Part shown: positions 8,040-41,956 of the stretch, in pieces
How the letters are laid out: the number at the start of each line of letters is the position of its first letter
How positions within the stretch are numbered: the stretch's first letter is position 1
Assembly (NCBI GenBank): GCA_963978545.1
Contig: OZ021721.1
Span: forward strand, 105,164,366-105,228,365
Direction: 5' to 3'
DNA length: 64,000 nucleotides
Source: Linyphia triangularis
Taxonomy: Eukaryota; Arthropoda; Arachnida; Araneae; Linyphiidae
Program-made: the position numbers and the translations under genes
Notes under the pieces: model-generated
Seen by the model: the letters and a program-made list of their open reading frames with translations, nothing else
The model's database searches: none
Told to the model about the DNA's origin: nothing

Positions 8040-9935
8040 TTTTTTTTAACATTGTTGTTGTTTCTTATTTCACTTGATCTAGAACAAGTCCAAGAGACCA
8101 TACGCCCAAAGAAAGTCTTGAACCAGCGCAGGGTTTTTAAATAGATTGCTCTTCTCCAAATCCAAACAGTAAAGCAAATTGTCCGGTGAAGCTTGATGGG
8201 AAATACACTTGAGGCACACAGGGTACTCCTTTTGTCCCTGAACATATGCAAGTGTGCGAGTATGTCCGGTGATGAGTCTGGTGATGGTGGTTTGTAATTT
8301 CCTGTCGCCTTTCAGCTCCAGGGCAACCCTAGGACGTTTTTGTTCATACCAGTCATGAGTTGGTGGAATCCTCCATGTCTTGCTGTTGCCGGCTCTGACC
8401 TCCGAGAAAATTTCCTTAAACGTAAGATGACCACAATTTTCGGATGTTACAGCAGAGCCTTCCTTAGCCAATTCCTCGGCCAAGTCATTAAAGAAGAGGT
8501 CTACATGAGAGGGTATCCACTGCAGATGAATGACATTATGCAAAGAGTAAATCTTTAGTTTGTTCACAATGTCCATGCCGAGTTTGTCGGTAATGTTTCG
8601 CCATTTGCTCAAGAATTGAATGGAGCTCTTACTGTCCGAGAAAATCCAGATATCGCAGAAGAAATTATTGGAAATCATGTAATGTAGAGCTTCGTCGATG
8701 GCTATCAATTCAGATCTAAAGACTGAACAAAAGCTTGGGTTTTGCTTGTTAAATTTTGTAACGCCATCAGGGGTTACAATTACTACTCCACTGCCTGTGT
8801 TGCCATTATCGTGTTTACTTCCATCAGTGAATATCCGAACTGCCCCTAATGGGGAACTATGAATTGTTTCTAAAGCCAATTGTTTCAGAAGTGCTGGATG
8901 CATGTCTTTCTTACTACTGAAAGACAGTAGTTCTTCATGAAAGAAAACAATTGGAAGATCCTCCAGTGGATTTAGGTTGGTTCCCAAAAGGCAGGATTCA
9001 ACTTCAGGAAATAAGAGATTTTGGTTGGCTGCCCTGCTAAAGGGGCTGTCACTTTTGAGTCTTTGATTGTTTTTCCAACCCTTTAGATAGGAAGCAGTTC
9101 GATGTTGGTCTCCAAAGCTATAAAGTTTACTAAAATATCTTGAAATGTTGGAAGACCATCTCAAGCTCAAAGGTTGAAGATTTGCCTCATAAAGAACAAT
9201 CTCATTAGGACAACTGTTACGTAGCCCTGTAATGATTTGTGCAGCACTTAGTTGGATCCTTTCGAGTTTCTTTAAATTTGTAGCAGATGCTGTTTGCAAA
9301 ATCTGATACCCATATTCCAGAATAGGTCTAATAAGGATGTGTAAGTCGTCCTGAGGGTAGACGCATCCGCCCCCCAGTCCCTACCAGAGATGTATTTTAA
9401 GATGTTTAGCCTCTTGCTTTTTTCACTAGATGGTCAATATGTTTATTGCTGGTTAGTCCTGGGTCAAGTGTAAATCCCAAATATTTTGGATATTTTTCAT
9501 ATACAAGTGGATGGCCATCAAGCAGGATCTTAGGTTGATAGTTGTAGATTTAATATTGCACTGAATGATCCTGAGTTTTTTCTTTAATGGAGACTGTCTG
9601 GTTTTTCGAACGAAGCCCTCTGCCTAGACTCCGGACTCTTCCCTGATTATCCTGCGCGACGGACGATGCAGTATTCAATACTGTAGGCGAACAATTCATG
9701 GTAAAGGAGATAGATGCTGTTTCTGTTGGTACTGGACCTTGGACGCCCGAGGGAAGAAGTCCGACTTTGTCCATTGCCTTTATGCTTTAGCTGGGTATAA
9801 TGGAATGGCCTTCAAGCCTTGGGTGACCCTGCCAGGAGAAAAAAAATCTCCAGACGTACATCGCCCATTCCACACAGTGTCACCACCCTCGCCACGATGA
9901 GGCAGCATAATAGGACTTGAGGGGGTTTAACATTG
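8040..9935 (-). mobile_element. Internally deleted non-LTR retrotransposon (RNase H-bearing group)
   Basis: The minus strand carries the C-terminal end of a reverse transcriptase and an RNase H domain. RT motifs KYLGFTLDPGLTSNKHID and RPILEYGYQIL appear near 9310-9500, with a frameshift between them. Upstream, at about 9545-9935, is a GC-richer segment with a short ATG-led frame (9550-9774) that looks like a LINE 5' leader and ORF1 start. The endonuclease and most of the RT are absent, so a large internal deletion between leader and RT tail is likely. Similarity is to the I/R1/Jockey-like assemblage of arthropods; I do not assign a clade. No poly-A tail or target duplication was resolved. Confidence 0.8.
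8079..9299 (-). pseudogene. RT C-terminus plus RNase H open frame of the LINE relic
   Basis: This is the longest intact frame of the relic (406 residues). It starts inside the post-RT region (LERIQLSAAQIITGLRN) and runs into a canonical RNase H fold. The acidic residues are visible in RIFTDGSK (about residue 158), FRSELIAIDEAL (about 192), IFSDSKSSI (about 218) and FFNDLAEELAKEGS (about 267). It ends in a Cys/His-containing tail (YPVCLKCISH) typical of LINE ORF2 C-termini. The frame is open but cannot work alone, because the catalytic RT palm and the endonuclease are missing. Confidence 0.85.
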
Positions 9936-10169: not shown

Positions 10170-10302
10170 CGTTGTGGCTTTTTGCAACCACTGGGGATCG
10201 ATTGTCAGACCTTTGGTTTTCCAGCCAGATACTCTATCCACTAGACAAAAGAGATCTCTGGTGTCTAGGAGCTGTGTCTGTTATTTGTACACGAGACCAC
10301 CA
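10170..10302 (-). repeat. tRNA-derived SINE-like repeat, copy 1
   Basis: Read on the minus strand, the unit contains a tRNA-like A-box region (TCTAGTGGATAGAGTATCTG) and a B-box-like GATCCCC arm. Next to it is a non-tRNA stretch shared with copy 2 (GATCTCTGGTGTCTAGGAG on the plus strand). The two units are about 345 bases apart in the same orientation. Anticodon and acceptor stems are degenerate, so this is not a functional tRNA gene. Confidence 0.6.
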
Positions 10303-10514
10303 CATACCACCTTCCCAGTGAGTTGCAAAGGGACAAACGATTGAGTTGCTTTCACTTACGGCAGTAAGTCGCCAGAGGTTGCTTGCTGTTTTGACAGTGA
10401 GTCGCCAAAGATGTCAAAATGATAGTGTGGAGGTTGTGTGGTATTTTCAGAAGGTGCGATAAATGGCAGCAGGATTCAGTTGTCCGATAGTCGCCAATAA
10501 AGTGTAGTAGCTTT

Positions 10515-10638
10515 TCTTGTGGTCGCTGGGGATCAATCGTGAGACCTTTGCTTTCCCAGCCAGATACTCTATCCACTAGAGGAAATAGATCTCTGGTGTC
10601 TAGGAGTTGTCTCTGTTATTTGTACACTAGACCACCAC
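10515..10638 (-). repeat. tRNA-derived SINE-like repeat, copy 2
   Basis: It closely matches copy 1 (shared CAGCCAGATACTCTATCCAC and TCTCTGGTGTCTAGGAG). It ends only about 33 bases before the acceptor of the first recognised legless exon (AG at 10670-10671), so repeat sequence lies next to, and perhaps supplies part of, the branch-point region. Confidence 0.6.
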
Positions 10639-10671: not shown

Positions 10672-10767
10672 TTAGGAACACTGAAGTGGCTTATTGATCA
10701 TGTTTATCAAGAAAAAGAAGAAGATATTGCTGATTTTCTGGATGAAAATTATTGTGCTGATGATTTG
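10672..10767 (+). CDS. lgs: lgs exon A: start of CECR2-like module
   Basis: The acceptor is TTTTCAG at 10665-10671 and the donor is GTAAGC at 10768. The exon is 32 codons, phase 0 at both ends. It encodes LKWLIDHVYQEKEEDIADFL followed by DENYCADDL, which aligns with the helical segment of CECR2 just before its GxDxxxxxYWY motif. An upstream exon must supply the preceding residues. Confidence 0.8.
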
Positions 10768-13700
10768 GTAAGCCTATATTTAACTTTTATAAATAAGTAA
10801 AAATACAATCAAGTCACTGGGGAAAGAAATAAAAGATTTCATTTGTGGGTGGAATTAAAATTTTTACTTTAAAATTGGCATTTTTAATTCTTTACTTTTT
10901 TAAAAATTAATCTTCAATAATACTAAAATGTTTTTCAGGAAATATTTTAGGAACCCTACAAAGATTTTTAGCAAACTGCATACTTTTAAAAGAAATTGTA
11001 AAAAGGGAGACTATAATTAAAAATAAAATTTAGGTATCGAAATGCATCAGGATATTTACTTTTAAGCCCCAATGCCAAAACAACAGAGCCCGCTCATCTT
11101 TATAATCTTGACGGAGTTCAGCCCAGTTTAAGCCTCCAAGCAGCTTGGGTCCTACTATAGCTAGAAACTATAATTTTAAATATTAAAAACATTTCTATCG
11201 CCAAAATATGCATTAAACTACTTTTCAAAACTTATTCATTAAAAATGAATGTGAATGTGTGCACTCATATCCAAATATCTTTTATTTGTCCTGATTAAAA
11301 CAATTTATTTTATTATTTATTCATTAAAACAATTTTGGCGACAAAAAAAGAGTTTCTTCAATGCTATTTCAGCGGGATTGGACGACGGCAAGTTTGTTTA
11401 TTAGTATTCCGTAGAAGCGCCCTGTTAGTGACAGTGATAGCCACCAAAATTTGATAAAATACATTGACATCAAATCTATCTGTCAAGTTTCAGCCCAATT
11501 GGATGACGGCAAAGGGTTAAACCCTCCGCAAATTTGCCTGCCATCGACAAGCATGCATACAAAATCTAAGTTAATATAAAGGATTAAAAAAAAACCTATA
11601 GCACTCTATCTAATAAAAATAATAGAAAGACAAATTAAACAGCCAAGATAAGAATATCGCCCAAAAAACAACTAGATGTTGTAAAAAAAGCCCACCAAAT
11701 AAAATAACCAGTCAGAAAAGTTGTGAAATCTAATCTTTGCCGCCAAGCAGCCCCGTTTTGTTTCTTTGGGGGTATTTGTACACAATGAACTAAATTGGGA
11801 TTATTAGGGGGAATCCCCATAGGCAATCAAAACTTGGCAGGCTAGAGTTATTTCCGATTAATTTCATTTCATTTGCTTCAGCTACTTTGCAACCATTGCA
11901 CTGAATTGAGTTTAATTAAAAAAAACTCTAGCCTGCCAAATACTGATTGCCTATGGGAAAGGATACAACCAATGGATATTTTATTGTGGATAATCATATC
12001 GTTGCTCTAAGAAAAAAAAAATTGTGTAAGAGACAGCACCATTAGATTCACATACTACTCTTTGTATTGAGAGTGACAATAAATATCATCATTAAATATC
12101 CTGGAGAGATTTTGGTTTGTAATCCAAATCCTTTTTGTTTCTTTTAAGAAGAAATCTTCCTTACCACAACAAGAAAAAACTTCATAATAAAAAATAATGC
12201 ACCTAATATAACTTAGAGTACAAAAACATGTAATTATATAAAAAAAAATAAGTGTATTTAAAAAATTAAATAAAACACAAAATACTTGCTTTTTATGAGA
12301 AATTGAGGATTACCAGCTTTTGCATACAAATAAATATATAAAAAAAGTTTGTCTCAAACAAACTTTCGCTTTAAATTTTAATTATAATACTTGTTATTAT
12401 TTAAAGAGAAATTCATCTAGCTTTAGTGTTGGTGTCCTTAAGATATTAGGCACGACATCATAAGGTGCATGGTTCAAATCCGACCAGATACCAAGAAAAC
12501 TTTATTTTAAACTGAAACTGGTTTTCTAAGTAAAAAGTTGAAACACGTGTTTTCAGAGCTTTGATAAGCATGCAATTTAATTGAAGAATAAGTCATTTTT
12601 ATTTATTTTTTTCGAATTACACCGTTTTAACAGTTTAACTTAAAGTATCAAAGTCACTTCTTGAAATTGAACAAGAGATGAATGTCCGAAATCTGTTGAC
12701 CCATTTTACTCCGTCATTACCCGAGCTAAAATACCATACTTCTGGAATTATTTCTGAGGGGTAAAGACCCTCTTGCGCATTATTTCATACAAAAGGCACT
12801 TCCTCTAATTAATCTAGCTTTTTTTCTTTAGCAAGAAAATACGAATTAAAACTTTATTTTGGCTGTGATAAGCAAAATTAAATTGTAAGAACTACTTACG
12901 TTCAAAATTTCGGGGTTCCCTCCCTGTGCATTGGAAGTTACTTTCCATGGACCATCAGGCAGACAAACATACTCTTTGTGAACCTTATATATACTAATAA
13001 AACTAAGTTTCTATTTCACACAGAAAATTATAAGCAATGATTCAGAATTTGAATATCTGGTTCTTTTTATTTAAAAATATGAGTTTTTAAAATTCGCATT
13101 TTTATTTTTTCCTTTGAATATTTTGTGAGCTGAAATTTTCAATATTGACAGACATGCTATTTTGAAAATTGTATTACATTAAACTCACACTTTTTAAAGT
13201 CTAGCCATAAAGCTTTATCTACAGATAAAGTGTGACTTTGAGAATTTTTAATTTTATTTGTTTCCCTTTGGTAATTGTATGTTCACTTGTATTTACAATT
13301 ATGCTGTGGCATGCAGCCATATGCCTAAGATAGAAATAATAAATGATATGCAAAATTCTGCATCGTCAGCACAATTAAAATATGAATAATATTTGGTAGA
13401 GCAATACAGATTAAAAAATCAGTGCTCTCACTATACAAGAGGATGTTACCGAATAAATCTTTCTCGTTAAAAGATAAATTTAAGAAGAAAGAAGTTTTGT
13501 TCAGGGTTCCCACGTTCCTTAAAAGTCATTGAAAGTGCTTAATGTTTTTTAACTTGTTTTCAAGGTCTTGAAAGTTCTTTGAAATGCTTAGAGGTGCTTA
13601 AAAGTCCTTAATTTTTGCAGATGTTGTGTGCCCAACTACAAAATTTATAAAAATATAAATCAGACTTGCTATCCCTATGTGACCGCCACTTATTCGCACC

Positions 13701-14318
13701 GTATAGGGATTCTCTGACATATTTGTATTATGCATGAGCCAACTTGTAACTTTTTTGGTTGAATATACTTTTTTTAAATTTTAATATAGACATGATGCCT
13801 GAAAATAAATTCTCAAAAACATTATTTAGGTCCTTAAATGTCATTGATTTTCATACTGTGATTTGAGTGGTAACACTGTCCTGTTGTTTCAAACACTTCA
13901 GATCAATAGAAGTTTGCCAATTTAACAATTTAAGTAAATGTATGAAAAAGAAATATTATGAATTATTTTGAAATTTAAAATTGAAGATAAGAAAAAGTTG
14001 CTAAAGGTATAAATAAAATTATATTTAAATGTTATTTAAGTTGTTTAATTGTCAATTGAGATTTTTAATAATATAATGTTTTGAATTTACGTGACAGTGG
14101 GATTTTTTCGCTACTAAATTATGAGGTCCTTAAAAAAAATTAAAAAGTTTAGTCATTAAAAACTACTTATTTTTACTTTTTTAAAGCTGTATGAACCTTG
14201 GGAAAGCATTATGAAATTAAAAAAATGTGTAGATCTTTTTTTGTCCTATTACCTACTGAGAAAAATTTTTTAATTTAAAAAATTTGGAAATTTTAGTGCA
14301 AAAGATAGTACTTTGGAA

Positions 14319-14394
<76 letters not shown>

Positions 14395-17300
14395 TCAGCA
14401 GTTAATGCATCGGTTTAGTGAGGCATATATATATAGTAATAAACATGAGATCAATTTGACAGGAAAAAAATTATTGTTATTGGAAGGGGGGGGGGGGGAG
14501 AGAATAATTTTTAAGTTTAATTAAATGCTGTAGTTCTTAAGCAGTGCAAGATAAAAAATTTCAGTATTAAAAAGGGGCTGTTATATTATGTCTTGATTTA
14601 AATGATAAAAGTCATTTACCATTAGTGTAGAAGAAAATTCTTGTGAAGATGATGATACGAAAAATCATATCTTGGCTTATTAAATAGCAACTGAAATAGC
14701 TTTTGTGTATAAATGTAGCTGTGAGATTTACCTGTATTTTTGTGCAATAAATGTTTTTAATTAATTTGTAATTGTGTTTCTTACTGAAGTTGAGATTAAG
14801 GGGACTTGGTACCTAGTTCAAACATTTTTTATTTTATTTAAGCCTATAAAATTATAATTTTTACATATTTAGAAGTATTACTAAGTAAAAACTAAATTCT
14901 ATTTAAAAAAAAGTTCACATAGTGCTCTAAAAAAATTCATCCAATTTCATATTCTATCTTTTTTGTTTTTCAATATTTTTTCCTGATTTTTTTTTTAAAT
15001 GTTCCTAGTAACATACTTTAACTTTTTAGGTATCGCATTTATAATTAGTAAAATAGTTTTTGAGAAAAAGGATAATTACTGTACCTATATGTAAAAAACA
15101 GGTATTTTTCAACATTTGAATTTGTAAAAAAAAAAGTTTTTATATTATTCAAAAATCCATGCCTATTTTTGTCAAATACAGATTAGGAATGACACAAAAA
15201 AAATTTCAAGTCATTTCATTCATATTTGCTGACATTTTAGCATTTTGAATAAGGTGGAAATTTCAAAAATCACAAACTGAGAAAAATGTGTTCGAAACAT
15301 CAAAAGAACTATTGCAGCAATGCTGAATTCTCCATAAAAATATAGTTTTTCTGTAATTGCAGTTATCGGATCAGCTCAAAAACTTGCCAGAATAAGGAGA
15401 CGGTTTCAAAGATTATAAACATGCAAAAAATAGAAAATTTATATTTTTATTATTTTTTGTGAAAACAAGGGGTACCAAGTGCCCTTAAAAAAAATCTCCA
15501 AATATTTCTTGGGAAATACACCAAGTTATTAACTGAACAATTATTGCTTTTACTTCAAGATGATTAAGTTTATTTAAGTATATGTGTAGCAAGAAATGGA
15601 GTACCAGTTTGACGTTTGTCGTTTAACAAATGGATGAACGTTGAATGCATAAAATAATATTGAACTCTCCTCTATTCATTGATGTATAGTATGTGGCGGT
15701 CTTTCTATTGCTGTCCATTGGAATTAAATAATTAAAACCCGATTCTTAATTTTGAATAACCCTGTATATATATAATAAGTTTGATTCTTATTTTCATATT
15801 TCTTTGTTTTAGAGAGGTATTTGTGCTGGACAAGACGCTTTTAACAATGTTTATTGGTATTTAGATGGTGAGTATTAGTGATATATTAGCACAATTTCAT
15901 TATTTGTGGTATAGCTCATAGTGCTAGTAATAAAATAATTGTATACTTAATATTAAAGAAAAAAATTCAGTAATGTTCTCCTGTTATATATAGTTATGAA
16001 AACATCTCAATATTTAATCTTTTTGCAGCTTGGCTGCCTTGCAAAACAAATTGTGTACACAGTCCCAATCACAATTGATCTATTATTATATTGTCTATAA
16101 AAAAATCTGGCTTTTACAATTGTGACAATGACTTCTCAGTGAATGTACTGAGCATAAATAATTGAATTATCTTAAAAACAATGGCTTTTGTTAATTTGTG
16201 CATTGTTTTAAAAAAATGAGGATTTTTTTTTTATAATTATTTTAATTGGAATGAGATATTTAAAAGTAAAAAATAAAATCATTGAATTTAATGAACTCAA
16301 ACCCCATTAACGCAAAATTGCTTAATATGAAATCCTGTTTAAGCTGAAGTAAAAGCAGCTTTCTTACTTAAAACTTAATGTTAATTTATTCGTTTAACAT
16401 GAAATTCGGTTAATGCGAACAATATTCGACGGCCCCTTCGACTCTATGTTAATGGGGTTTGATAGTACACACACTTATGTAAGCTTCATTAACCCATTGA
16501 CGATGGTTGGTAAGAAAATTTGCCAATCCACATGTTAATTTTTTTCTTAGCTAATAAATTGTGTTTGTGGTTCCACTTAGTGTTTTTTTTTTAAATCATA
16601 AAAATAATTTTCCAAAAAATCTGAAAAATTCTGAATATACTCTAAATGATCTAAATAAACAAAATAAAAGTGAAAAACAAGGACTTTTTATCTATTTTAA
16701 AGTCATTTTTATTGGGTTAAAGTTTTTATACGTTTAGCAAGTTTATTTCATTGAGTTAATGCAATTGAGAATTTAATTTAATTCAACTAAGCATTTAAAA
16801 TGTCAAAATACAGTTTTTTAATGATAATTGGGTGCAAAATAGCATCTAAAATTGTTTTTTTTTTTAAGCCTGTTCTTTCATTTTTGGAACCATGCTTTAT
16901 TTTAATGAATACCCATTTCTAAATTAAAATTCACTATTTGTTGTGGTTTTATTTATTAGTTGTTTTCAGGTCACTTTGTTTTGTTATAATAATTTGATCA
17001 ATTATGTGTTAGTCATTCTAGATTGTCTGTGTAACATGTTGTTGCTTTCCAGATTTAAGATTATATAGAGAGTTTCCTCATAAAAAGCAAAGTAAAAGAG
17101 ATTGGGAATGTGTCTGCCTAACCATCAATGACTGGCAATCATTTATCAAACAGTTTCGCAAGACTAGTAATCTTCAAGAAAAAGAATTATATTCTTATTT
17201 AAATTTTGAATTATTTCCCATTGTTGAACTTCAATTGCTGGTGAGTTTTAAAACTTATTTTATATTGAAGTTAATAATTGTTAAGATAGCATACATCCAT

Positions 17301-20300
17301 TTTGTTCAAAATTGATTATCAAGCTATGAAAGCCTTGTAATTTTTTCTGTAATCTGTATATCCTTCATTATTTGTATTTTCAAATGGTACCAAAAGCACA
17401 TCTAGGACATTCCAGTAGATTATTCTGCAAAACAATTGAGTGAAAAATAAATTGAATATGTGTTAGAATTCTCCTTTCGATCACTACATCAAAGAACTCT
17501 TCTAGGAAAAATTAGGCTGGCACTTATAATTGAAAAAAGCTAATGTTGAACATTAAAAAAAAAAAAAAAAAAAAAAAAATTCTATAAGAACCTCATTGAG
17601 AACTTGTCTAAAAATTAATAGTAGTAATGAATTGTCTGGTAGGAGTTTCCATACACTTGTGTTGTGTAATAGTTTTTTTTTTCTTAATCAATTTTTATAT
17701 TAGGGACATTTAAAAATGTACTTAACAGTGGTAAATAAAAAAAAAAGTCTGTGATGTGGTAAAATGGATAAAAAAAACTTTTTAAAGAAAAATTATGAAT
17801 CATCTCTTAAAATCCATGTAAATGAAATATGCCCTGTCTAAAATATTTTGTAATTTAAACTTAAAAATCACCATTTGCTTTACCCCTTTCAATGTAAATA
17901 ATATTTTTCTTTGTCAGTTAAGCACTTGAATTATAAATGGAAGTTAGTAATATAAAAGCATATTCACAAATCAGGTAATTTTCTCTGTCAATACATTTAA
18001 TAGATAATAGAGATAGAGGGGCTTTTTAAATTTTTTTTTTTTAATTAGATTAAGTAAATGTTGGTGAAATATAAAACATTTACTTCTACAAAATTTTATT
18101 ATTTTGTGCATTGTATTTTAATTTAATTGCATAACATAAAATCTTATACATTCTTGTTTTAGCATAAGAAATCTCGTCAAACTAAAGAAGAAGTTAACAA
18201 GTATTTAATAAAACGTGAGCGTGAAGATCTGGATGTCATGCTTGAAAAAAAGACATTTTTAGAATGTAATAATGTTGCTATCAAGCCAGATGTGAATGGT
18301 ACCGATTCCCTTTGTCTAGAAAAACACAATGGTGCTGCCTCACCTTTAAAAATTTCTAGTGCAAGTCCAAATGACTTTCCAGATTTTCTAGAGACTAGTG
18401 AAGAGTGTGAAAAAGATTCTGCTATGAACCATTGTGATGGTCACTTAAATATTGATGAAAGTGTTTGTTCCATTAGCAGTAGCTTAGGTGGATCTACAAT
18501 GGACATAAAACCTAATACTGAAGTAAATATGTGTGCTAATTCGTGCTCCAGTTCTAATGCTGGAAGTTGTAACAGCAACCCAGATGCTAGTGTTGTTTCT
18601 TCTAATACTAATACTATGTCTTGTGGAAAAGGAACAAGTTGTATTACTTCTCCCAGTGCAATTGCAACCACATCAGCTATGCCATTGTCTCTTGAAAATA
18701 ACCAAGAGGGTATGTAATATTTTACATTATGACTTCCATTGCTTTGATGTTATTAGAACAATGATGCGTTATTAGAAATCTTATGACAGCACTGTTAAAG
18801 TCATAAAGACAGCTGTAAAGTCATTATTATTTAAAATGGAAGTCACGATTTAATTGGTGACTGAAAAAGCTGCAATAATAGGGATCTCTATGCATAAGTT
18901 AACTACAACACATAAACAAAAATATTTAAATTTATCTCTAGTTTGCTATGCTTTTCTCATTTATGGTAATAGTTCGTATTTTTGATGGGAACTTTTATTT
19001 CATTATAAGCGATTCCTGTTGATAGATTTTTTTTTTATTCAAATACAATTGTTGTTCTGAGATTTTGGGTTCTGATAAACGTTTCTGTAATGTATTTGTT
19101 TTTTGAAAAATGAAAAAAAATTCTCAAGTTACTAAAAATTTAGTCGTATTTCGCAAAGTTTTTATGGCATGATTAGAACTTGTAAAAAACTATGCAAAAA
19201 GTTAAGTCTTTAAAGTAATTCTTTAATGCATATTTAAATTGATCATCATTGAAGTTCTTAATATAGATATGTCTAGATTATATAAATTGTGAGTAAGTAA
19301 CATTGTTAAAAATCAGATAACAAAGAATCATACTATTATTTGCAAGGTTACATATTGTTACCTGTTTTACTTAGACATCATATCACACATTAACTTACAC
19401 AAATTTTGTACACTTCGTTATAAAACAACAAGTTTGTAGCACTTTGTATGGTAACTGGCCATTACAATATTTGATTGAATCTCTATGCTCTATTTTGGTT
19501 GTTCATTCGACTATTTCAAGCATGTCACAAATTATCGAGTGTTATCGAACAGAATCATAAATGATTAATTCTTTGCATATTGCAATTATCAATAATATCC
19601 TTAGAACAGACTCCAAATATATTGCACCTTGAGTCAAGTTGGCTATGTTCATAGTTCAAGCTTCTTTCACCTGCAGTGGGATATTTTTTATTGTTTGATC
19701 TTCTGCAGCATTTCTTAATTTGTAGGTTGTAACACATTGATGGATTGTGAACCAAAGATTGTTGTATTTCACTATTTTTGAAACTTAGTTTCTAATGTTT
19801 GATAGTCTTAAAAAGTAATTTAAAGTTGATCTGTACACATGTGTTTAAATCTAATGTACTATACACTATGCATTAAATTACATACATTTTTAAAAACTTC
19901 AGACAAATATACAGTAGATTTAGCATTTTTTAAATGTTAATTTGAATTAATTTACAGTCAATAACTAAGACATTTTTAATTGCCTTAGGTCAAATGGCCA
20001 TACAAAAGAGTGGATTGCAGTAGACCAACTTTCTAAAAATGTGTGTTGTCGTAAACTATCAACACTCACCATTGCAGTATCAATTTATGTATCATACTTT
20101 GCTTATGATCAAATAATCTGGTTTTTTTTATGAACACAGCTATTTGAAATGTTTTTTTTTTTTTTTTTTTTTTTACATGATTTAGTTATTTTTTTTTTTT
20201 TTTTGTATCTTTTTTTCTTTAAATTTTTAACATAAAATTTATTGATTCACAAATTAAAAAAAAACTTTTTTAGAGATTCCCCCTATGTCAGCCATGTCCA

Positions 20301-23300
20301 ATATGCTAGGATCTGCAGCTACTCCTGCTACTACAGCATCCGTCCAGCCACTACCTAGTAATATGGTTAACAAGACTTCATTCCAAATGGAGACTCAATA
20401 TATGCAACAGCAAAGTCAAATATTTGTATTTTCTACTGCTCTTGCAAACAAAGCTGCTGAATCTTATTTGTCCGGCCATTACCCTTCTCTTATTGCTTAT
20501 CATTGTGCACAACCAGGAACAAAGTCTTTACTTGAAGTAGGTCTTTTATTCATGTATTCTGAATTGTAATTGTTTAAATCAGCGTTAGCCACTACGCGGC
20601 CCCAGGCACCACAGAAGATTTAAAAAATCAAATTTCACTGTATGGACCTTTGTTTTACATAATTGTAATTTATCTGAAATAATGTGTGCTAACTATGTAG
20701 AACAGAGTTCTCCATTACATGCCCGAAGAAACTATATGAAGAAGCTTTCAGCACGGTGCCGTTCATCAAGAATAAATACAGATATAACTTAACTGAATCT
20801 CATTCAGACAATTTATTAAAATTGATTGCAACAAATACTCTGAAAGACATTGACTCTATCATAAAATAAACTGAACGAAATTGACCGCCATTGTCTTACA
20901 ATTGATGTGGACTAAAACAGAGTAATCTGAAAGTACAATTTAAATACTTTTATAAAAAGTTAGTCAAGTCGCATTGTCACATCAAAACAATAGATTCACT
21001 TCTTTCTTAGACATTGATTTACTAATAATGAAACCTATTACTTTTTAATTATTTGAAGAAGAAAAAAGGATAAAATATCAATTGTAATTTCATTGAGATA
21101 AAAAAAAATTAATATTTCTTTCCAGTTTTCAGAAATGTTATATATTGTTAAATCAATGATAATTAAAGATACATATTTTGATGTATCCGGCCCACAAAAA
21201 TCTCCAACATAAGTCATATGGACCGCCTCTAAAAGTTAGTGGCAAACGCTGGTTTAAATGGTATTTGTAACTTCTTTTTTTTAAAGTTGTGTCCATTTCT
21301 TTAATTGATGGTAGCTATTAAGTTTCAGAAGATGAAAAGAATTTTCAAACTGAACACATCCCAAAAACAAAATATATGCAAGAAATATTAAAATGCTTTA
21401 GTATTATAATTAAATCACCGATCATCAGTTCTGTATTTAAAATTATTAATTTTAAAATTACCATTCATCTAAAATAGTTTTAGTACAATATAAACATGTA
21501 TGTATTAGATCAAACAAAATATTCTAAACTTGTAATGAATATTTCAAATAAATTTACGAAATAATTTTTTTATATATTTGCCATGGATTGCTAATAGATT
21601 TATTATGCATTGTTCAAATTTTATTGTTAAAATATGATTTAATGCTCTGAAACAAATTTCTATTTGTTGTATAGATTTACAGTCAAACCTTGTTAGCGGG
21701 ACATTGCTTTACATGAAATCTCATTTAACGCGAAGTAAAAGCAGTTCTCCGTTCTTAAAACTTAATGTTAATTTATTCGTTTAACACGAAATTGCGTATT
21801 AGCGCGAAGAACTTATGTGGCCCCATCGTCTTTGCTTTAACCGTTTTTGACTGTATTTAAATATGGTTGTTATAAATTTAAAACATTTTTTTTTTACACT
21901 TTTCTGTGTTTGCAAAATTAATTGTGTTATAAAAATAAGAGGGCTACAAATATTCTATTAGCATACTAATCTCCTAAACGTTGCTCCTTGTTATGATACC
22001 AAACTGTTGAAGACTTTTAAAAAAATTAAGATTTTGACATTCAATTACTTTTAACAGCATGTAAATTCAAATTTTTTCAATATTCCTGTAAATGTTATGG
22101 ATTGTAGAAATAAAATATTTATCAGTAGCACATGCCTTTCTTGCCTGAGCAGAGCTTTTTTTTACCATTGTTTACCTGATGTTGCTTATTTTATATTTAT
22201 GAATGTGTTAAATTCATATTTAAATCTTTTATAGAAATATGTTATTAAACTTACTTATGAAAGGATTAATTCATTTCAGAAATATCCCCTGAAGGTTCAG
22301 CAATTTAATCGGCAAAATCCAGCTGTTTGGTTAAATGCACTTGCTCAAGGAAAACAGGCTGGTCGGCAAATGAAAGCACCATTAAATCAGTTTCCAGTAC
22401 CTCACAATATGAATAATCGTTATCCTGGCCCTTCAAGTGCACCAATAATGAGCCCTTGCTCTGGCTCTTGTAATATGCATGGCCCTGGTATGTGCTCTAC
22501 ATCCCGTGGGCCTGCACCATGGCCTAATAATTGTGGAGGACCAAACATGGGTCCCTCAATGGGCAATGATTTATGCTCACAGCCATGGCCAGTGCAGCAA
22601 TTTCCTCCAGGACCATCTTCATCACCAATGAACCATAGATTTCCACTTTCTCAACAAGGTATGGGCCCAAGGCAAATGGCACCTTCAGGAAGTCCACTGT
22701 TAGGCTGCATGAATAGTGTTAATCCCAATGTCAGTGGAGCAACATTTCAAAATCCTAGCCTTAATCCCATGCAAATGAATCAAGGACTTGGAGGACCTTC
22801 CACCCTAACAGGTATTGCACACATTTAAATGTAGCATATTGTGTAGCTTTAAAAGCATGCCTATATTCCTTTCAATTTCAAGAAAAAATATTTTTTTTAA
22901 ATAATTGTTCCTGGCACACTTCTACAAGATCAGCGTCAGCCACTAGGCGGCCCGCGACAGCTTTTTCTCCGGCCCGCTGGCAGTACAGAAGAGTAAAAAT
23001 AAAATTTTGCGGAAATAATTTTAATATGTCTACAATAGTATGTGTTTCCTACCAAAAACCGCGTTTTCCATTTAGTGGCCAGAGTTAGTAAGTCTGAAAA
23101 ATCCTTTTTTTTTCCTGAGACTGCCAGAAAGAATAAAAAAAGCAATAGTTTGAATAATTATCAATGACGCATTCCTTTGCATTGCTTAGTTTTGTACTTA
23201 CGATGCTCAACCCCCTCGATTCGTGAATGGCACAATTCGATATCTGCTTTTCTGAATGTAATGGGCAGGAGTTGGGTGTTTCAATGCATACCTCTTTTGT

Positions 23301-26300
23301 TTGGACGTAACTAAAAGTATCGCGATCTCTATGACTTCAGTGCAATAATGGCTTCGAAGATTAGTTTTAAATGCAAAGTCGATAGTGAAAAGCGGACCGG
23401 CTGTCATCGTCTCGGAATTGAAGATTTAGGAGGCATGGTTTAAATATCTTTATTGATTATGAGTTTATGTCAAGTCACATTGTAATATTGTCACAAAAGA
23501 TTAACTTCTTTTATGACTTTGATTTACGATGTCAAGAAAATTATTTTTTTAATTATTTGAAACAAAAATCAAATATCAATTGTTATTTTATAAATATAAA
23601 AAAGTTAAATTATTGTTTCAGTTTTCAAAATTGTTTTATATTGTTGAATCTTTAGTAATTATCACATTTCTAACATTGAACATATGTAGTAAAGCAATAT
23701 ATTTATTGGCGTATTCGGTATAAATCTACGGCCCGCGGAAAGTTCCAACATAGGTCATGCGGCCCATCTCTAAAAGTTAGTGGCGAACGCTGTACAAGAT
23801 AGTACTTATTTCCAATTTATGGATTAGTTCTTAACTTTGAATACAATGTGAACAATTATTCCACATGGTATTCTTACTCATACTTCTTTTATTCTCGCAT
23901 GGATTTTGCCTAAAACATGCTTATTATAGATATTAAGGTTATGCTATAGTGTTTTAGCAAAATGGTATTTAAAACTTAATGTTCATAAAAATAATAAATT
24001 TTAATTTTCTTTGTATCTTTATACCTGCTTTTTATTGTATAATATTTTAATATCACTCATGAATATAGTAAATAATTACATATTTATTTAAGGGGTAAAA
24101 GTACCAGATGAAAATTTGACTCCCCAGCAAAGACAACATAGAGAAGAACAACTTGCTATGATTCGTAAAATGCAACAGCTCTTATTTCCTGAGCAGCAGC
24201 ATATGGAAGGTGCACAAAGTACAATGGGTCCTAATGTGGGACCCGTCCTAGGAGGAATGCCTCATCAACATGCTTCTCAAACAAGATTTGGACCTGGAGA
24301 GATGTGTGTTCATCCTGGAATGGATGCATGCTTTAGTCCACATCAAGCTTGTATGAGTGAGCATGAACAATCTCATCAACCTTCAGATATGTATATGCCA
24401 AACTCAATCATGGGACCTGGATTTCACCAACAAAATTTCCCTGGTGGTTCAGCTTCAGCTCAGATGGAATGGCAAAAGCTTCAACATCAATTTTATGAAG
24501 AAAGGCGTAAAAAACAAGTGTGTGGTACTCCATTAACTCATACTGTTGAATCAGAAATGCAGTTAAATGTTACACAACAAGTGCAACCATTACAAACTCA
24601 ACAACAACCAATGTCACAACCTCCAACTCCACAACAACAAAGCATTAACAGTCCTAGCCCTAGCATGGGTCTTAGTCCTGGAACAAGGATGCAAGGCCCC
24701 CCACCACCATATCACCAAACAAGTAGAAGAACTATGCCCAGTCCTCATCCTGCTTCTCCTAATACTAGTTCACTCTCATTACCTTCTCCACACATGGCAT
24801 CAGGATTACCATCACCAGCTGATCCATCCCGGCAATTTCCAATTCCTACACCCCCTGGCCCAAGGTTACCTCATCCTAGTCCTGGCCCAACTACTCCAGT
24901 TGGAAGCAATAGCTTACACACAACACCCCTCAATTCACCAAAACCTATGAGTGCTTCTGGACCTGGTTCAAACAGTGGAGCACTCACTAGAACACCTACT
25001 ACACCATCTAACACAGCATCCACACCTGCTAGCACCCCAACTAGCTCATGTGCTCCTGTACTATCTAACTCTGGTCCTGGTACTCCAGCTAGTTCGTGTG
25101 CTTCAAGTCGTAAACAAAACCAACCTTGCAGTAGTGACATTCAGGATTCCAATTCAGTTGGTTCGACAACTACTGTAAACAATGAATTTGGATCATCATG
25201 CCCTATATCAACTTCAAATAATGTTCAAGGTTAGTGAGAATCGTCTTAGTTGTTATAGAAAATGTCCCATAAAATTTAAGTATCTAGACTCATTGGTTTT
25301 TCCAGCGTAATCCTAGAAATGAAAAAGGGCAAGGTGCTCTTTTGCAAAAAAAGGCAACTCTTATTTCTAAGGGCACTTTAATAGCAGATTGAACAAAATT
25401 TAGCCGGTTTTTCTACCATAATTTTTACATTGTTTTATTTTTTTACCATGATATATACATTTAAATAATGATTTTTTTAAAATTAACAATTCTTAAGAGT
25501 ACAAATCAAAAACTTGCTGAAGATCCCTTTATAGAGATGTCTACTTGAAAGACTGACTCTTAACTCCTTTTATAATTCCTCCATTTTTTAAAAATGAAAT
25601 TATGCCTAGTTAGTTTTGATTTCTCCGTTAATTTTTTATCAGTTTTTCTTGTTTAATAGTAATTGTACTGTATTTAAAATAAATGTATCATATTTCAGGA
25701 GATTTGTTTGGCCAAAGTATGCATTCATGCAATCCATCAAAGCCAGATAACTGTGCTAATCATGGCGGAGTTTGTCCTAAAGAACCAAGTCTTATGCCTG
25801 TTCCATCTCCACAGCAAATTCAGTATAATGCTTTTGATGGTCAAGAGCTTACAATTCAAAAACAACCAAATACAAGTATCAGAGATTTAGATATCATGTC
25901 ACCAGCTAGGCAAGTGCTTGAATTTGTATACATTGTGTACTATTTTTAATATATTCTTTATACTTTAAAAATTGAGTAACATTTTGTGACAAAGTGTGTT
26001 TGAGATATTCTGTGCAACAATGATAAACTCACAAAGCACAGATTAGCCTTGTGCTAAAAAAATTAAGTGGGAAAACATTGTTTGTAGATGACCCAGAGAG
26101 TTCAGGACGGTTGTTGCTTGGAATCATATAACTTATTTGTGTGGTCTACCAGTTAATCTTTGAATTGCTGTCATTTAAAAGCAAACTGGTATAGTATCCA
26201 AATAAGCTATATGATAAGCCGGGTGAAAATACAACTCATTATTGTAAGAGATCAAAGTAGAATAGATTTATGATTGAGTTCTCTCTTGCTTCACGGAACG

Positions 26301-29300
26301 CCTCATTTGATGTGGCTGGGATTCTGCATGGAATAAATCGAGGTATATTTTATTCAGAGTGGCAACAGAACCTGGAAATCAGGGAAATGTGAGAGAGCTT
26401 TCTGATTCTTTAAAAAATCAGGGAAATGTCAGGGAACTTTTTAAATTTCATGAAAATCAGGAGAATTTTGTTTGGTTTAAGGCACGTTCATCCATATTTT
26501 GGCGCTATTTACATGGAGATTTGTAGTGGTAAGCCATTAGAAGTTTAATGTTACTGAATAATTTAAACTTTTCATTACCAGCAAAACTATTTTTTTAAAA
26601 ATTGCATATTATCTCTTGAACATACATGTTCTATTTGATCAGGGTGTCTAGACATCTAGAAAACCTAAGAAAATTGGGGAAATTTGAAAAAAGTTTGCCC
26701 TAAAATCAGGGAATTTTTTAGAAATCTGTCAGGGAAATCGGAGAATTATCAGGGAACTATTTTTCCTGAATTTTGTGGCCACCCTGTTATTTAAGTCAAC
26801 TTTAATTTCTAGGTCAAAAGCCAGAAATAAGTTAAAAACAACACAAAATATAATTAATCTACAAAACAGGTATTGAAACAGTGAAAAATGTATCAATGTT
26901 TATGACGTACCAAATGTTTTTTTCTGCCGTAATGTAATAAAATTATTTGTGAATTATGCCAATTACAAAGGAGTTTCACATTATTACATCTTAGAATTTT
27001 ATATTAAATGTTCATCTATATAAAAATCTTTTGAGTTAGTAAATTAGAAATACTTGAATTATCTCCTTAGTCTCGAATCAGGGTTTGAAATTATATCTTT
27101 CAAAGTATTTAAAATATTATAAAAGGGAAAAGTTTGCATGACAATTTGTATAGTAACAGAATAAGCACTTTTAAAATTTATATTTTTTGATTATTATGTA
27201 AGTTGATAAGAAGTGCATGTATTGCAGAACTGCGGTAAAACTATATGCTAATAATAAAAAAAACCAGCAAGACTTATTAAAATTGAAGGTGTTTATAATA
27301 TTATTATATTAGTATTTGACCCAAAAAAGTAAATTTAGTTTTAATATTTAGATAAAGTGTTAACTATCTCTACTTTCAGTCTAACTTTCAACATAAACCA
27401 TTGAAATTATTAGCAAACTTTGCTTAATGTCATGGTTTATTTCCAAGTATGCTACTTTTTTAGCAGCACTGCAATATAAAATAGAAAAGTCTCTATTTTA
27501 TATCAAGCAAACAACAAGAACAAAATTTATGTGACTTAGACAATTTTCAAAATTACTTTTTGCAAAATTTGCATTTTCAAAGTTGACAACTGCTATTTTT
27601 GGTCTGCACATTCAAAGTTACACAATGGTTAAAATATCAGGGTTCTAGATATTGTAGGAACTAAGTTATGAGGGGGCCAAAACCAGTTTGAGGTCAGTTG
27701 ATATACTATACACTGGCTGGTTCTGTCATTTTGACATTAGAGCTTGGGGGAAGGAACACTGTTGCCTTCCTTGATCTTATCTATTGAGATATATTTATTA
27801 ACTTACAAACTCTGCTACTCTTTCTTTAGTTGTATGTTATGTTCATATTTTAAAAATGTATGTTACCTAACTATCTCCTCTATTTTCAGAAGTAAAGTAT
27901 GTGGTAACCTACATAATAAATCAAACTGATAATATTTATTACAAGCGTATAATCAATTTTTTTTCTCTCATAGCATTCCTCCAAGTATGGTTATGAGTGC
28001 TGGCTCCCATTCTCAATATCAAAGTCCTGAAGCTGCATCATTTCCCAATACTCCAGGAAGCTGTCCATCGATTCTTGAAAACAGCCAAGATAGCTTATCT
28101 GGGCGTTATCCTGTATCTGCACCAGCTAGCATGGATAGCAACATGCAACGCTTTACTGCTCCAAGTCCTCAAATGCCAGGATTTGAATCTGGAACTAGGC
28201 ACATGTCTTTACAATCAAATGAGACAGGTATGCCAAGATTTCCTGGAGCTCCAAATTTAGATATGATTAGAATGCCGGGTCCTGGGTCAATGAACCACAA
28301 TCCTTTAGATGAAAGTTGTAATAGGTTTCCTGGACCTCCAGGCCAAATGTTTGGTCCAGGACCTAATAATATGTCGAGGTATCCTATGAGTGCATCCGAG
28401 ACTATGCAGAGGTTTCGTGGTCCAAGTCCTCATGCCAGTATGGATATGATGCATTCACGGTTCATGGGATCAAATCCTCATATGTCATGTGTTGATAACA
28501 TGCCGCAGTCTTCACAATTGAATAGCATAGGATCAGATGCTGTTCCCCATATGCCAAATCAATCTTTTCAAAACTCTGCTCAAGCATTGACATCTAGCAG
28601 TAGTTCTTGTGTTGGGAATAATTTTATGGTAGAAGGAAACATGCCTCATTCCCACTTGCAAAATTTGCAAAAAATGACACCTCCATTTGAAAGTATTTCT
28701 AGTAATAAGATACCCTCTGAAGTAATTTCACCCTTGGGACAATGCTCAAATTCATCTGCTAATGGTTCTAATATGAGTATGCAATCATATGATGGAAGCA
28801 ATTCATTACCACCAACCTCACAAGTAGATCCATCACAACGGCTTTCACATTTTGATCCAATTGCATCTATGGCTGCAATGAGTGAGTCAACGGTTCCTTT
28901 GGTGACTGCTGCAGGAAATGCTCAAGGTCCTCAAAACATAATCAATTCGAATATGAATATGTCAAATATGCAAATGGCTACAAACACTGGAAACAATCAA
29001 ACTAATATGATTAATTTCCATACTAATATGCAATCAATGCAAAATTCTTCTGCCTGTTCAATGCCAAATCAACGCCCTCAATTTAATGTACATAGTCAAA
29101 TGGCACACAATTCTGGATGTGGACCCCAAAATGTTAATAATACCTTTGCAAGTTCAACGATGTCTGTGCCTCAGATGAATATGCAAAATGCTAACACAAC
29201 TTCTGCATACAGTAACTGCAATCAAGATCCTAATATGAATCCTCATGCTATGCATGTAGGTTGTCCGAGTAATGGCGCTAATACTATTAGCTGTTCTGTT

Positions 29301-30188
29301 ACTACTAATCATCCAATAATGCATACGTCTGTTACGACTAGAACAAATTCTAATATGTCCATCCCTGGACCAAGGCATGGACCTCAGAATTTCCTAGGAC
29401 AACCGAATGTTCAACGAACAATTTCTCCTGTGGGTGCTGGTAGTCCAACCATGATGGCAAGGGGGGCTCCTTTTAACTCTCCAAATGTACAAGTCAAATC
29501 TGGTGCTCCAAATACAATACAGTACCTACCAGCACGGCAGCAAAATCCTAACCCGGTTCCTGGACGTGGTGGTTCAACATTGGAATTCCTCCAAAGATTT
29601 GCTCCTCCACTTACTAATCTTGATAACAAAGTACCAACGCACAACCTTCAGTACTTTCCCAATAGTGGAGGAAACCATCCACCTATTCATCCAAATGTAG
29701 GTATGAATTCTAATCCAGCCAATGTTGCACCAGGTATGATGAATAGTCAAAGGCCTGTAAATATGATGATGGGGCCTATGATGAGAGGAACTAGTCCTAA
29801 TGTGTCGCATCCAGGTGGCCAAATGTTTCCAGTAGGTGCAGGACATCCTAATGCAGATCCTATGTTTGGTCGACCTCCTTGCCCGAGCAATCAGATGATT
29901 CCTATGAATGCCATGGGAGGTGGACAAAATGTTGCTATGTTTTCAAATAAACAAATGCCATTGCCAATGGGTGGCATGGCTCCAGAAGCTACTCAGCCAT
30001 TGCCTCCTTCCATGGGTCAGTCATTTAATTATAAACAGTCTCCATTTTATGGACCCACTACTGCTGATCCAAATTATGCTGTTCAGTTTCACAATTTTCA
30101 ACAACAGTTGTATGCAACTAATACAAGAGGAAGTCAAATGAATTCTCAGAACAATATGGCTGGACAAGGATTTTTTGGAGCTAAGTAA
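10672..30188 (+). CDS. lgs: Legless/BCL9 homologue with N-terminal CECR2-like module (5' partial)
   Basis: Nuclear Wnt co-activator scaffold; in known family members HD1 binds the Pygopus PHD finger and HD2 binds Armadillo/beta-catenin. Coding exons: 10672-10767, 15813-15867, 17053-17240, 18163-18709, 20274-20536, 22280-22811, 24093-25229, 25699-25909, 27974-30188. Every junction joins in phase and the sum is 5244 bases, giving 1747 residues plus TAA. Residues 1-135: CECR2-like DDT/WHIM-type region. About 136-340: Ser/Asn-rich. 344-379: HD1 (IFVFSTALANKAAESYLSG). 567-600: HD2 (TPQQRQHREEQL...LLFPEQ). 684-702: third conserved block (MEWQKLQHQFYEERRKKQ). About 1520-1555: NTIQYLPARQ plus LEFLQRF. 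1711-1730: FHNFQQQLYATNTR. The rest is Met/Asn/Pro/Ser-rich and probably disordered. Drosophila Legless is about 1470 residues and has no N-terminal module. The true start was not found. A shorter product could begin at the ATG at 18238; that is inference. Confidence 0.93.
11815..11957. repeat. Inverted repeat with ~34-base arms
   Basis: The left arm CCCCATAGGCAATCAAAACT with GGCAGGCTAGAGTT (11815-11850) is mirrored by the right arm AACTCTAGCCTGCC with TGATTGCCTATGGG (11924-11957). The spacer is about 74 bases. It is probably a foldback remnant in the first recognised lgs intron. Confidence 0.7.
12431..12491 (+). repeat. tRNA-like relic, not a functional tRNA
   Basis: A B-box-like GGTTCAAATCC at 12471-12481, a loop containing CAT and a partial acceptor pairing (GGTGTCC with AGATACC) resemble a tRNA. 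The anticodon and T stems have mismatches and the D-arm is poor. It is most likely the head of an old tRNA-derived SINE. Confidence 0.3.
13505..13870. repeat. Dispersed-repeat-like sequence (CTTGAAAGT motifs)
   Basis: It has recurrent short motifs of the type CTTGAAAGT, AAAAGTCCTTAA and GTGCTTA, the style of arthropod interspersed repeats. No ends were resolved. Confidence 0.3.
14321..14392. repeat. (AT)n microsatellite, about 36 units
   Basis: An uninterrupted AT dinucleotide run of 72 bases. A 30-base tRNA-A-box-like segment (GCTCAGCAGTTAATGCATCG...) follows, then a second short AT run. Confidence 0.95.
14800..15484. mobile_element. TTAA-flanked terminal-inverted-repeat element
   Basis: It is flanked on both sides by TTAA (14796-14799 and 15485-15488). 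The ends are GGGGACTTGGTACC and the reverse complement of GGGCACTTGGTACC, 13 of 14 bases matching. The TTAA target resembles piggyBac-type insertion, but the termini do not begin with the usual CCC and no transposase is visible. Non-autonomous; superfamily uncertain. Confidence 0.65.
15813..15867 (+). CDS. lgs: lgs exon B: YWY-motif exon
   Basis: The acceptor is TTTTAG at 15812 and the donor is G|GTGAGT at 15868. It encodes RGICAGQDAFNNVYWYLD. The G-x-D-x5-YWY pattern is the hallmark of the WHIM-type region in CECR2/RSF1 relatives. It ends in phase 1, and the split codon (GAT) is completed by exon C. Confidence 0.85.
16296..16464. mobile_element. Short pogo-like MITE
   Basis: The termini CAAACCCCATTAAC and GTTAATGGGGTTTG are exact inverted repeats. 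The interior (AAGTAAAAGCAG, TTTATTCGTTTAAC) matches the MITE at 21680-21853. Exact ends are uncertain by a few bases. Confidence 0.7.
17053..17240 (+). CDS. lgs: lgs exon C: CECR2-like W-x6-F region
   Basis: The acceptor is CCAG at 17052 and the donor is GTGAGT at 17241. It encodes LRLYREFP, then WECVCLTINDWQSFIKQFRK and LQEKELYSYLNFELFPIVEL. These match the CECR2 pattern of R-x-Y-x-E-x-P, a WWLLC-like strand, then E-E-W-x(5)-F and L-Y-x-x-L-x(5)-P-I. The exon starts in phase 1 and ends in phase 0. Confidence 0.85.
18163..18709 (+). CDS. lgs: lgs exon D: end of CECR2-like module joined to Legless N-terminal linker
   Basis: The acceptor is TTTTAG at 18162 and the donor is G|GTATGT at 18710. 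The first 25 codons (HKKSRQTKEEVNKYLIKRER...) continue the basic tail of the CECR2-like module. The same uninterrupted exon then becomes Ser/Asn/Thr-rich and acidic, like the Legless region upstream of HD1. Because one exon carries both, the module cannot be explained as a neighbouring gene joined only by a mis-predicted splice. An in-frame ATG at 18238 could start a short form. Confidence 0.88.
20274..20536 (+). CDS. lgs: lgs exon E: HD1, Pygopus-binding domain
   Basis: The acceptor is TTTTTAG at 20273 and the exon completes a split Glu codon. It encodes QIFVFSTALANKAAESYLSG followed by HYPSLIAYHCAQPGTKSLLE. This is HD1, which in BCL9/Legless packs on the rear face of the Pygopus PHD finger. 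The donor GTAGGT at 20537 leaves phase 0, matching the next acceptor. Confidence 0.95.
20580..21251 (+). mobile_element. Internally deleted hAT transposon, copy 1
   Basis: It has perfect 8-bp target duplications GTTTAAAT at 20572-20579 and 21252-21259. The terminal inverted repeats are CAGCGTT-GCCACTA. Inside, the plus strand encodes a fragment like the C-terminal dimerisation region of hAT transposases (PFIKNKYRYNLTES...NLLKLIATNTL) ending at a stop near 20868. It lies in the lgs intron between HD1 and exon F. It cannot be autonomous. Confidence 0.9.
21680..21853. mobile_element. pogo-like MITE with TA target duplication
   Basis: CAGTCAAACC...TTTTTGACTG is flanked by TA at 21678-21679 and 21854-21855. 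It is 174 bp long with an interior related to the 16296-16464 copy. Confidence 0.85.
22280..22811 (+). CDS. lgs: lgs exon F: linker between HD1 and HD2
   Basis: It starts after TTTCAG (22279) with KYPLKVQQFNRQNPAVWLNA, which aligns with the basic stretch after HD1 in Drosophila Legless. The remainder is Pro/Gly/Met/Asn-rich. The donor is G|GTATTG at 22812, phase 1. Confidence 0.9.
22931..23792 (+). mobile_element. Internally deleted hAT transposon, copy 2
   Basis: It has perfect 8-bp target duplications TACAAGAT at 22923-22930 and 23793-23800, and ends CAGCGTCAGCCACTA...TAGTGGCGAACGCTG. The 3' half is homologous to copy 1. Near 23350 is an ATG-led MASKISFKCKVDSEKR fragment that resembles the N-terminus of GTF2IRD2/ZBED-type hAT transposases; the middle of the gene is missing. 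It lies in the lgs intron before the HD2 exon. Confidence 0.88.
24093..25229 (+). CDS. lgs: lgs exon G: HD2 (Armadillo/beta-catenin binding) and third conserved block
   Basis: It opens with GVKVPDENLTPQQRQHREEQ, nearly identical to fly Legless, and continues as the amphipathic HD2 helix (MIRKMQQLLFPEQ). About 115 residues later is MEWQKLQHQFYEERRKKQ, the third homology block. A Gln-rich stretch, then GPPPPYHQ and long Pro/Ser/Thr-rich sequence follow. The donor is G|GTTAGT at 25230. Confidence 0.95.
25699..25909 (+). CDS. lgs: lgs exon H
   Basis: The acceptor is TTTCAG at 25698. It encodes a Cys/Pro/Gln-containing linker (GDLFGQSMHSCNPSKPDNCA...DLDIMSP). The only donor that keeps the reading frame into exon I is the GC-type AG|GCAAGT at 25908-25915. 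The nearby GT (CAA|GTGCTT) gives the wrong phase. Confidence 0.85.
25910..27973 (+). other. Predicted GC-AG intron of lgs
   Basis: The donor is AG|GCAAGT and the acceptor is TCATAG. Exon I starts with one base that must complete a codon begun by two bases; only the GC donor supplies them. The intron contains a repeat at 26355-26786 and no other recognisable gene. Confidence 0.8.
26355..26786. repeat. Composite TIR repeat with AATCAGGGAAATGTCAGGGA motifs
   Basis: The ends CAGAGTGGCAACAGAA and the complement of TTTTGTGGCCACCCTG are inverted. A second CAGGGTGTCTAGACATC terminus at 26640 suggests a nested or chimeric copy. The internal motif TCAGGGAA recurs many times. No target duplication was resolved. 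Confidence 0.55.
27974..30188 (+). CDS. lgs: lgs exon I: C-terminal activation region, with stop codon
   Basis: The acceptor is CTCATAG at 27973, and the exon starts with the last base of a split Ser codon. The 737 codons are Met/Asn/Gln/Pro/Ser-rich. Conserved islands are SGAPNTIQYLPARQ, STLEFLQRFAPPL and AVQFHNFQQQLYATNTR, all alignable with the Legless C-terminus. The frame ends in TAA at 30186-30188. Confidence 0.93.
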
Positions 30189-41150: not shown

Positions 41151-41933
41151 TGTTACGAATTTGTGTATATTTGTAAATATTTCGTAGTGCTAATTTTGTA
41201 AATAGTAATTTATGTACAAGGCAGTGCAATAGTTCTACGTTAAATTGGTTTCCCTGCAGTGAGCATCTCAATGTTTGATAGCGGGTTTTACAGAGGTAAC
41301 TCTGGGAAGCGAGTTTTAAGGGGCAGGGCATTTAACGTTATGGTAATGGGAATCTCGCCAAATTAGCGAGATAGAGCCAAGTTGGCGACGGTTTTGGCGA
41401 CTAATTTTTGTCGCCAAATTTGGCGATAAATCGCCAAATATCGCCAAACTTGGCGACATTTTCGGTACATGTATAGGTACATGTATCCCATATCCTATAT
41501 AGGTCTTTTCGACTACTCTCTGGAAAGTTCTCCAGACATCTACCTCTCGAAGGTTCGTGAAGGTTCGCAGCCTACCCTATATAAGGACGGCCGTGAGTAG
41601 AGTTAGTCAGTCAGTAGTTAGTTGTCTCTCAACGTTCATTGTGAGAGCTGTATTCCTAACTTGAGTTAGTTCGCGGATTTTGAGTCACTGAATTAGTTGA
41701 CTGGAGATACTGAGCGAACTGTATTGCATTGTCTTTTGCGGCGATTTAGCAGTTGTTTGTCCAGTTTTTAACTGCTGTTTTGTGCTCTATTGAGGTGAAA
41801 AGAGCTGTATTGTGTCTACTAGAACGAGAAGTTCTGGAGCTGTAAGAGAACTGTGAAGAGTTATTTTGGAATAAATTCCTGCAAGTTTTGATCTGCTTTG
41901 GCGTCAAATCTTTCGAACCCGTACAACGCAACA
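41151..41933 (+). repeat. 5' LTR of the Gypsy element (783 bp)
   Basis: It begins TGTTACGAAT and ends CGCAACA (TGTT...AACA). It carries a TATA box (TATATAAG, 41579-41586), an AATAAA (41870-41875) and a cluster of TCGCCAA/TTGGCGA inverted motifs at 41353-41456. Confidence 0.97.
41353..41456. promoter_or_regulatory. Cluster of TCGCCAA/TTGGCGA palindromes in the LTR
   Basis: It includes a perfect 16-base palindrome TCGCCAAATTTGGCGA (41411-41426), a near copy TCGCCAAACTTGGCGA (41441-41456) and several half-sites. Placement upstream of the TATA box suggests a protein-binding regulatory array; function is inference. Confidence 0.45.
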
Positions 41934-41935
41934 AC

Positions 41936-41951: not shown

Positions 41952-41956
41952 GTTTG

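Follow-up and report, generated by a model that had tools for sequence, protein, structure and literature searches.

A spider Legless/BCL9 gene whose predicted protein begins with a DDT+WHIM module, very likely of the CECR2 branch

What is a piece of a chromatin remodeller doing at the front of a Wnt adaptor? The question is raised by the lgs gene of the spider Linyphia triangularis, nine of whose coding exons lie in the 64,000-nucleotide stretch of DNA analysed here (the window; 105164366-105228365). The textbook picture of Legless/BCL9 rests on the fly and human versions, and neither Drosophila Legless nor human BCL9 is known to have such a module. What stands out here is a Legless/BCL9 whose predicted protein starts with DDT+WHIM, the kind of domain used by remodelling proteins to hold the ISWI motor. 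The literature was searched, and no description of a module-bearing Legless/BCL9 was found.

There is little doubt about the rest of the protein. Its sequence makes the gene a Legless/BCL9 orthologue, read in a single frame, because of matches to HD1 and HD2 and the presence of an HD3-type helix. HD1 in exon E matches BCL9 HD1 chains in the PDB (3zpv, E 1.6e-9; 2vpe, 1.3e-4; 2xb1, 1.8e-3), some of which also name Pygopus homolog 2. HD2 scores 60.9 bits against PF11502 (56.9 bits in the whole protein; cut-off 25) and matches BCL9 chains 2gl7 and 3sl9 (E 0.0024-0.0026), both from beta-catenin complexes. The helix in exon G, EWQKLQHQFYEER, has by eye the W and F/Y doublet that passages of PMC5352222 give as a feature of HD3; among PDB chains it had no match. 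HD1, HD2, the HD3-type helix and the C-terminal blocks come in the order usual for Legless/BCL9/BCL9L, the adaptor of the Wnt enhanceosome, and several relatives are named BCL9 homolog. The spider protein differs by the DDT+WHIM module before HD1, which the fly and human proteins are not known to have.

The preliminary description of this DNA had claimed an open frame of nine exons, and it was right: exons A to I join in phase over 1,747 codons plus TAA (Table 1), with AG acceptors throughout and GT donors except at exon H. The intron after exon H is apparently GC-AG (donor AG/GCAAGT at window 25910, the slash marking the splice). Also as described, the module runs unbroken within exon D into a Ser/Asn-rich linker and then in phase into the HD1 exon, and the motifs of exons A to D are present (GQDAFNNVYWY, RLYREFP, DWQSF...LYSYLNFELFPIV). 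The description had placed the N-terminal module in those four exons, which is true of its second half only. Its beginning lies before the window, in further exons of the same contig and strand that stand in the expected order. The likely start exon has as its support eight residues and its phase; its pattern matches once within 40 kb upstream plus the exon-2 stretch. The whole gene as predicted spans about 131 kb (105063618-105194553), with 13 coding exons for a protein of 1,860 residues.

Table 1. Predicted coding exons of the spider lgs gene. Exons A to I are in window positions, the others in contig positions.
Exon	Position	Strand	Content or support
Coding exon 1 (likely start exon)	C14:105063618-105063642		ATG-MPRKLKSQ
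Coding exon 2	C14:105087900-105088006	same as lgs	whole-genome search with Parasteatoda N-terminus; splice sites read
Coding exon 3	C14:105147817-105147911	same as lgs	whole-genome search with Parasteatoda N-terminus; splice sites read
Coding exon 4	C14:105163320-105163431	same as lgs	ends 934 bases before window; splice sites read
A (coding exon 5)	10672..10767	+	end of DDT/WHIM1 helices, LGTLKWLIDHVYQEKEEDIADFLDENYCADDL; phase 0/0
B (coding exon 6)	15813..15867	+	WHIM GxD/YWY segment RGICAGQDAFNNVYWYLD; phase 0/1
C (coding exon 7)	17053..17240	+	WHIM strands and helix, DLRLYRE...WECVCLTINDWQSFIKQFRKTSNLQEKELYSYLNFELFPIVELQLL; phase 1/0
D (coding exon 8)	18163..18709	+	charged helix past module, then Ser/Asn-rich linker; phase 0/1
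E (coding exon 9)	20274..20536	+	linker end and HD1 (Pygo-binding element), QIFVFSTALANKAAES...
F (coding exon 10)	22280..22811	+	HD1 region end, Pro/Gly/Met-rich linker
G (coding exon 11)	24093..25229	+	HD2 (beta-catenin-binding) and HD3-type helix
H (coding exon 12)	25699..25909	+	GC donor
I (coding exon 13)	27974..30188	+	C-terminal region, VNNT and NTIQYLP blocks, TAA stop

The start of exon A is 95% identical to Araneus over 20 residues (tblastn), and residues 163-229, in exon C, are 85% identical to Parasteatoda (E 5.9e-32 in the whole-genome search). A chance origin of the N-terminal frame is excluded, because a search with the first 300 residues, counted from exon A, finds matching proteins in other species with E down to 3.9e-150. 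It is nearly certain that the module and Legless are fused in one predicted frame.

The first 225 or so residues are very likely a DDT+WHIM module of the CECR2 branch. Here the preliminary description had ventured a likeness to CECR2, to be judged against CECR2 and RSF1 profiles, and similarity was found. The profile of CECR2, made of two rows, aligns over 208 columns at 26% identity (hhalign probability 99.5, E 2.4e-22), as against a weaker E of 2.1e-5 for RSF1. RSF1 and Itc1/ACF1/BAZ1A have the same order of DDT followed by WHIM. Itc1/ACF1 own a WAC domain as well, and ACF1 also PHD fingers and a bromodomain, unlike Lgs (in passages of PMC12093815). The fold predicted for an orthologue's module aligns best with Ioc3 of yeast ISW1a (2y9y, 2y9z), spanning both halves at 14% identity; Wnt-related parts are not known from Ioc3. 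Ioc3 was absent from the fold matches listed for a flatworm module model (pLDDT 81.6). Pfam is less generous. Its DDT profile (cut-off 22) gives the module 19.4 bits and the whole protein 15.8, and CECR2, a known member of the family, at 20.1 likewise falls below. The GxD signature of WHIM is present as GQD in exon B. Neither WSD nor KIAA2026_hel in Pfam matches the Lgs module, whereas the spider's own CECR2 matches KIAA2026_hel and, weakly, WSD. A tree of modules gave no resolution of the branching order.

CECR2, the ISWI partner in the CERF complex, shares with spider Lgs the N-terminal DDT+WHIM, the GxD/YWY signature, the W...F...L-Y...L-P helix and two intron positions with their phases. 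Lgs differs in running on into HD1, HD2 and HD3. As a candidate CECR2 orthologue it was rejected: a Pfam scan of the 1860-residue protein returned BCL9 and a weak DDT alone at E <= 1, with no bromodomain. Nor can lgs pass for the genome's CECR2 gene. The separate gene that the description had thought worth seeking has a better candidate at C1:13713642-13717686, the sole other place in the genome reached by the module query at E <= 1 (E 0.0076 and 0.32). Human CECR2 meets that locus in five collinear stretches. Three reach an E value near 1e-4 or lower (58% over 11-41, 47% over 98-135, 45% over 139-169); the other two are weak, at E 0.031 and 0.21. Within 140 kb around it no bromodomain was found. 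The DDT-core exon has matching boundaries in lgs and the C1 gene, at residues that align with each other: a phase-0 intron (LTTQ/DLEEAL in one, FEIA/ELESAI in the other) and a phase-2 intron (DI-TT/A-IANF; DV-AG/A-YDNW). The remaining module introns differ. The coincidence of two positions and phases supports common descent of the Lgs and CECR2 modules.

Is the module under selection? In the three retrieved species compared, its constraint is close to that of HD1 and far above that of the linker. Identities to Araneus, Parasteatoda and Uloborus are 92%, 85% and 81% for the module, 92%, 90% and 86% for the HD1 region, and 72%, 52% and 54% for the linker; the Uloborus model starts inside the module, giving 194 of 225 residues for comparison there.

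I propose that the module would hold ISWI by wrapping around its SLIDE tip, which is what the DDT/WHIM modules of Ioc3, Itc1/ACF1 and CECR2 do, and that Lgs would thus itself be the regulatory subunit in an ISWI complex. HD1 would hold Pygo (and, via Pygo, H3K4me), HD2 beta-catenin and HD3 ChiLS, the three bindings given in passages of PMC5352222. The remodeller would thereby be placed, most likely, at Wnt-responsive enhancers. Homology tips the balance toward ISWI docking onto the Pygo/beta-catenin complex: passages of PMC7948406 have the DDT domain of CECR2 needed for binding SNF2L/SMARCA1, and in the ISW2 and ACF models, according to parts of PMC12093815, SLIDE touches DDT, WHIM1 and WHIM2. 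Several results count against this mechanism. In Paramecium, by the account in passages of PMC11789628, ISWI binding was not found to need the GxD motif. The missing Ioc3 match of the flatworm model, the lack of KIAA2026_hel and WSD matches in the Lgs module and the lack of resolution in the module tree weigh on the same side. An unlikely but serious alternative is that the module is a real part of Lgs and no longer binds ISWI, serving instead to anchor the Wnt complex to chromatin by binding nucleosomes, linker DNA or another protein. WSD motifs contact linker DNA too (PMC11789628), and the module has diverged from CECR2 to the degree given above and lacks a WSD match. It would then have to be explained why the predicted fold matches an ISWI subunit over both halves and why the whole module is conserved nearly to the level of HD1.

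If docking is true, several protostome groups would unite in a single polypeptide two systems now treated apart, the Pygo/BCL9/beta-catenin complex and ISWI remodelling. The Legless of a spider, tick or annelid would be a natural covalent link between the Wnt complex and the ISWI side. Loss of acf1 in flies derepresses Wingless targets (PMC3820798, citing Liu et al. 2008), and the passages on it name no physical means by which the Wnt complex would reach ISWI.

How old is the arrangement? Three protein searches, limited to candidates within a length window that have five-residue words in common with the query, retrieved 15 of 2,129, 15 of 738 and 30 of 775 candidates, altogether 36 different proteins, named at source BCL9 homolog (several), uncharacterized protein (others) or collagen (one dragonfly). 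The GxD-YxY segment is in 33; P0014, P0018 and P0034, which lack it, are models whose first residue falls within the module or beyond it. Other chelicerate lgs genes, where the description had suggested looking for this N-terminus, do have it in spiders, horseshoe crabs, a tick and a sea spider. The module accompanies HD1 or a canonical HD2 in the spiders Araneus, Nephila, Uloborus and Parasteatoda, in the horseshoe crabs Tachypleus (three loci) and Limulus, in Rhipicephalus and Nymphon, and in the dragonflies Ischnura and Hetaerina. Parts of it remain in the models from a mayfly, Ephemera, and from another dragonfly, Ladona. The annelid Owenia combines it with BCL9 at 51.8 bits, the bryozoan Watersipora with BCL9 at 23.8 bits (cut-off 25); HD1 was looked for in the Watersipora protein and not found. 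The module is thus not peculiar to this genome but is found in several protostome groups. All three BCL9-type loci of Tachypleus (P0005, P0006, P0016) keep it, which speaks for its importance. Among the 36 (P0013, P0018 and P0030 bearing no species name) there was no named neopteran insect, crustacean, mollusc, vertebrate or cnidarian, which in a search by words and length window is not proof of absence.

The same N-terminus across groups, conserved near the level of HD1 and far above the linker, argues that this architecture, from module through linker, HD1, HD2 and HD3 to the C-terminus, probably goes back to early protostomes, to the ancestor that arthropods, annelids, bryozoans and flatworms last had in common. 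A single ancestry of the fusion is likely. Loss of the module in flies and vertebrates is plausible. I would suggest, tentatively, that ancestral BCL9/Legless may have been an ISWI regulatory subunit tied to Pygo, beta-catenin and ChiLS, of which the adaptor-only Legless of flies, and perhaps vertebrate BCL9, are stripped descendants. The canonical model of the Wnt enhanceosome would then have been built on lineages that had lost a built-in dock for a chromatin motor. Our view of the parts of ancestral BCL9 changes accordingly if so. Taken as a whole, the best explanation, and a fairly probable one, is a Lgs with a CECR2-branch module, an early-protostome architecture and ISWI docking.

Single ancestry has a rival in the flatworms. 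Fifteen of their proteins look like divergent BCL9 homologs, and it is quite improbable that the fusion arose more than once, in arthropods, annelids and bryozoans and separately in flatworms. The Schistosoma module is 28% identical to that of Parasteatoda, flatworm modules sit on a branch of 2.81 in the module tree, and in 14 of 15 proteins 1-2 of 300 shuffles score as high on the HD2 HMM as the protein itself. HD1 exceeds all 320 shuffles in just 5 of 15, all tapeworms (one by gene prefix only), and HD3 exceeds shuffles in 2 of 15 only. Against this, the N-terminal position is alike and so are the partner blocks: besides those five HD1, VNNT and NTIQYLP each outscore every one of 300 shuffles in 13 of 15. 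Flatworm modules also have LRLYR, preceded by DD or D, in common with most other Lgs modules, and both spider CECR2 and human CECR2 differ at that site.

Could the module have come from the KIAA2026/BRD10 branch and not from CECR2? The bryozoan protein reaches 26.3 bits on KIAA2026_hel (cut-off 27.8) and the annelid a weak 13.4, but human CECR2 scores higher, at 41 bits, and therefore KIAA2026_hel does not separate the two. The spider Lgs module fails to match that model at all, and I regard such an origin as improbable. The nearness of Watersipora P0035 to the cut-off hints at a single group that takes in the modules of Lgs, CECR2 and KIAA2026. As for two adjacent genes wrongly joined, a truncated CECR2-like gene and an lgs to which exons A to D do not belong, the introns are long and the partial Stegodyphus model P0014 begins after the module, but this idea has next to no chance, largely contradicted as it is by the same junction in annotated proteins of many species, by an open exon D that holds the module's tail as well as the linker, and by phases that agree throughout.

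Repeats lie in and around the gene. In the intron before exon A, an open frame of 433 amino acids (window 8079-9380, minus strand) matches RNase H and RVT_3, a piece of a LINE-type retroelement. Just upstream of exon A are two copies (about 10187-10304 and 10523-10637) of a repeat that by eye resembles a tRNA-derived SINE, and a long TA dinucleotide run occupies about 14321-14392 between exons A and B. Downstream of lgs, 41846-46492 (plus strand) is an open gypsy-like gag-pol frame with protease, reverse transcriptase, RNase H and integrase.
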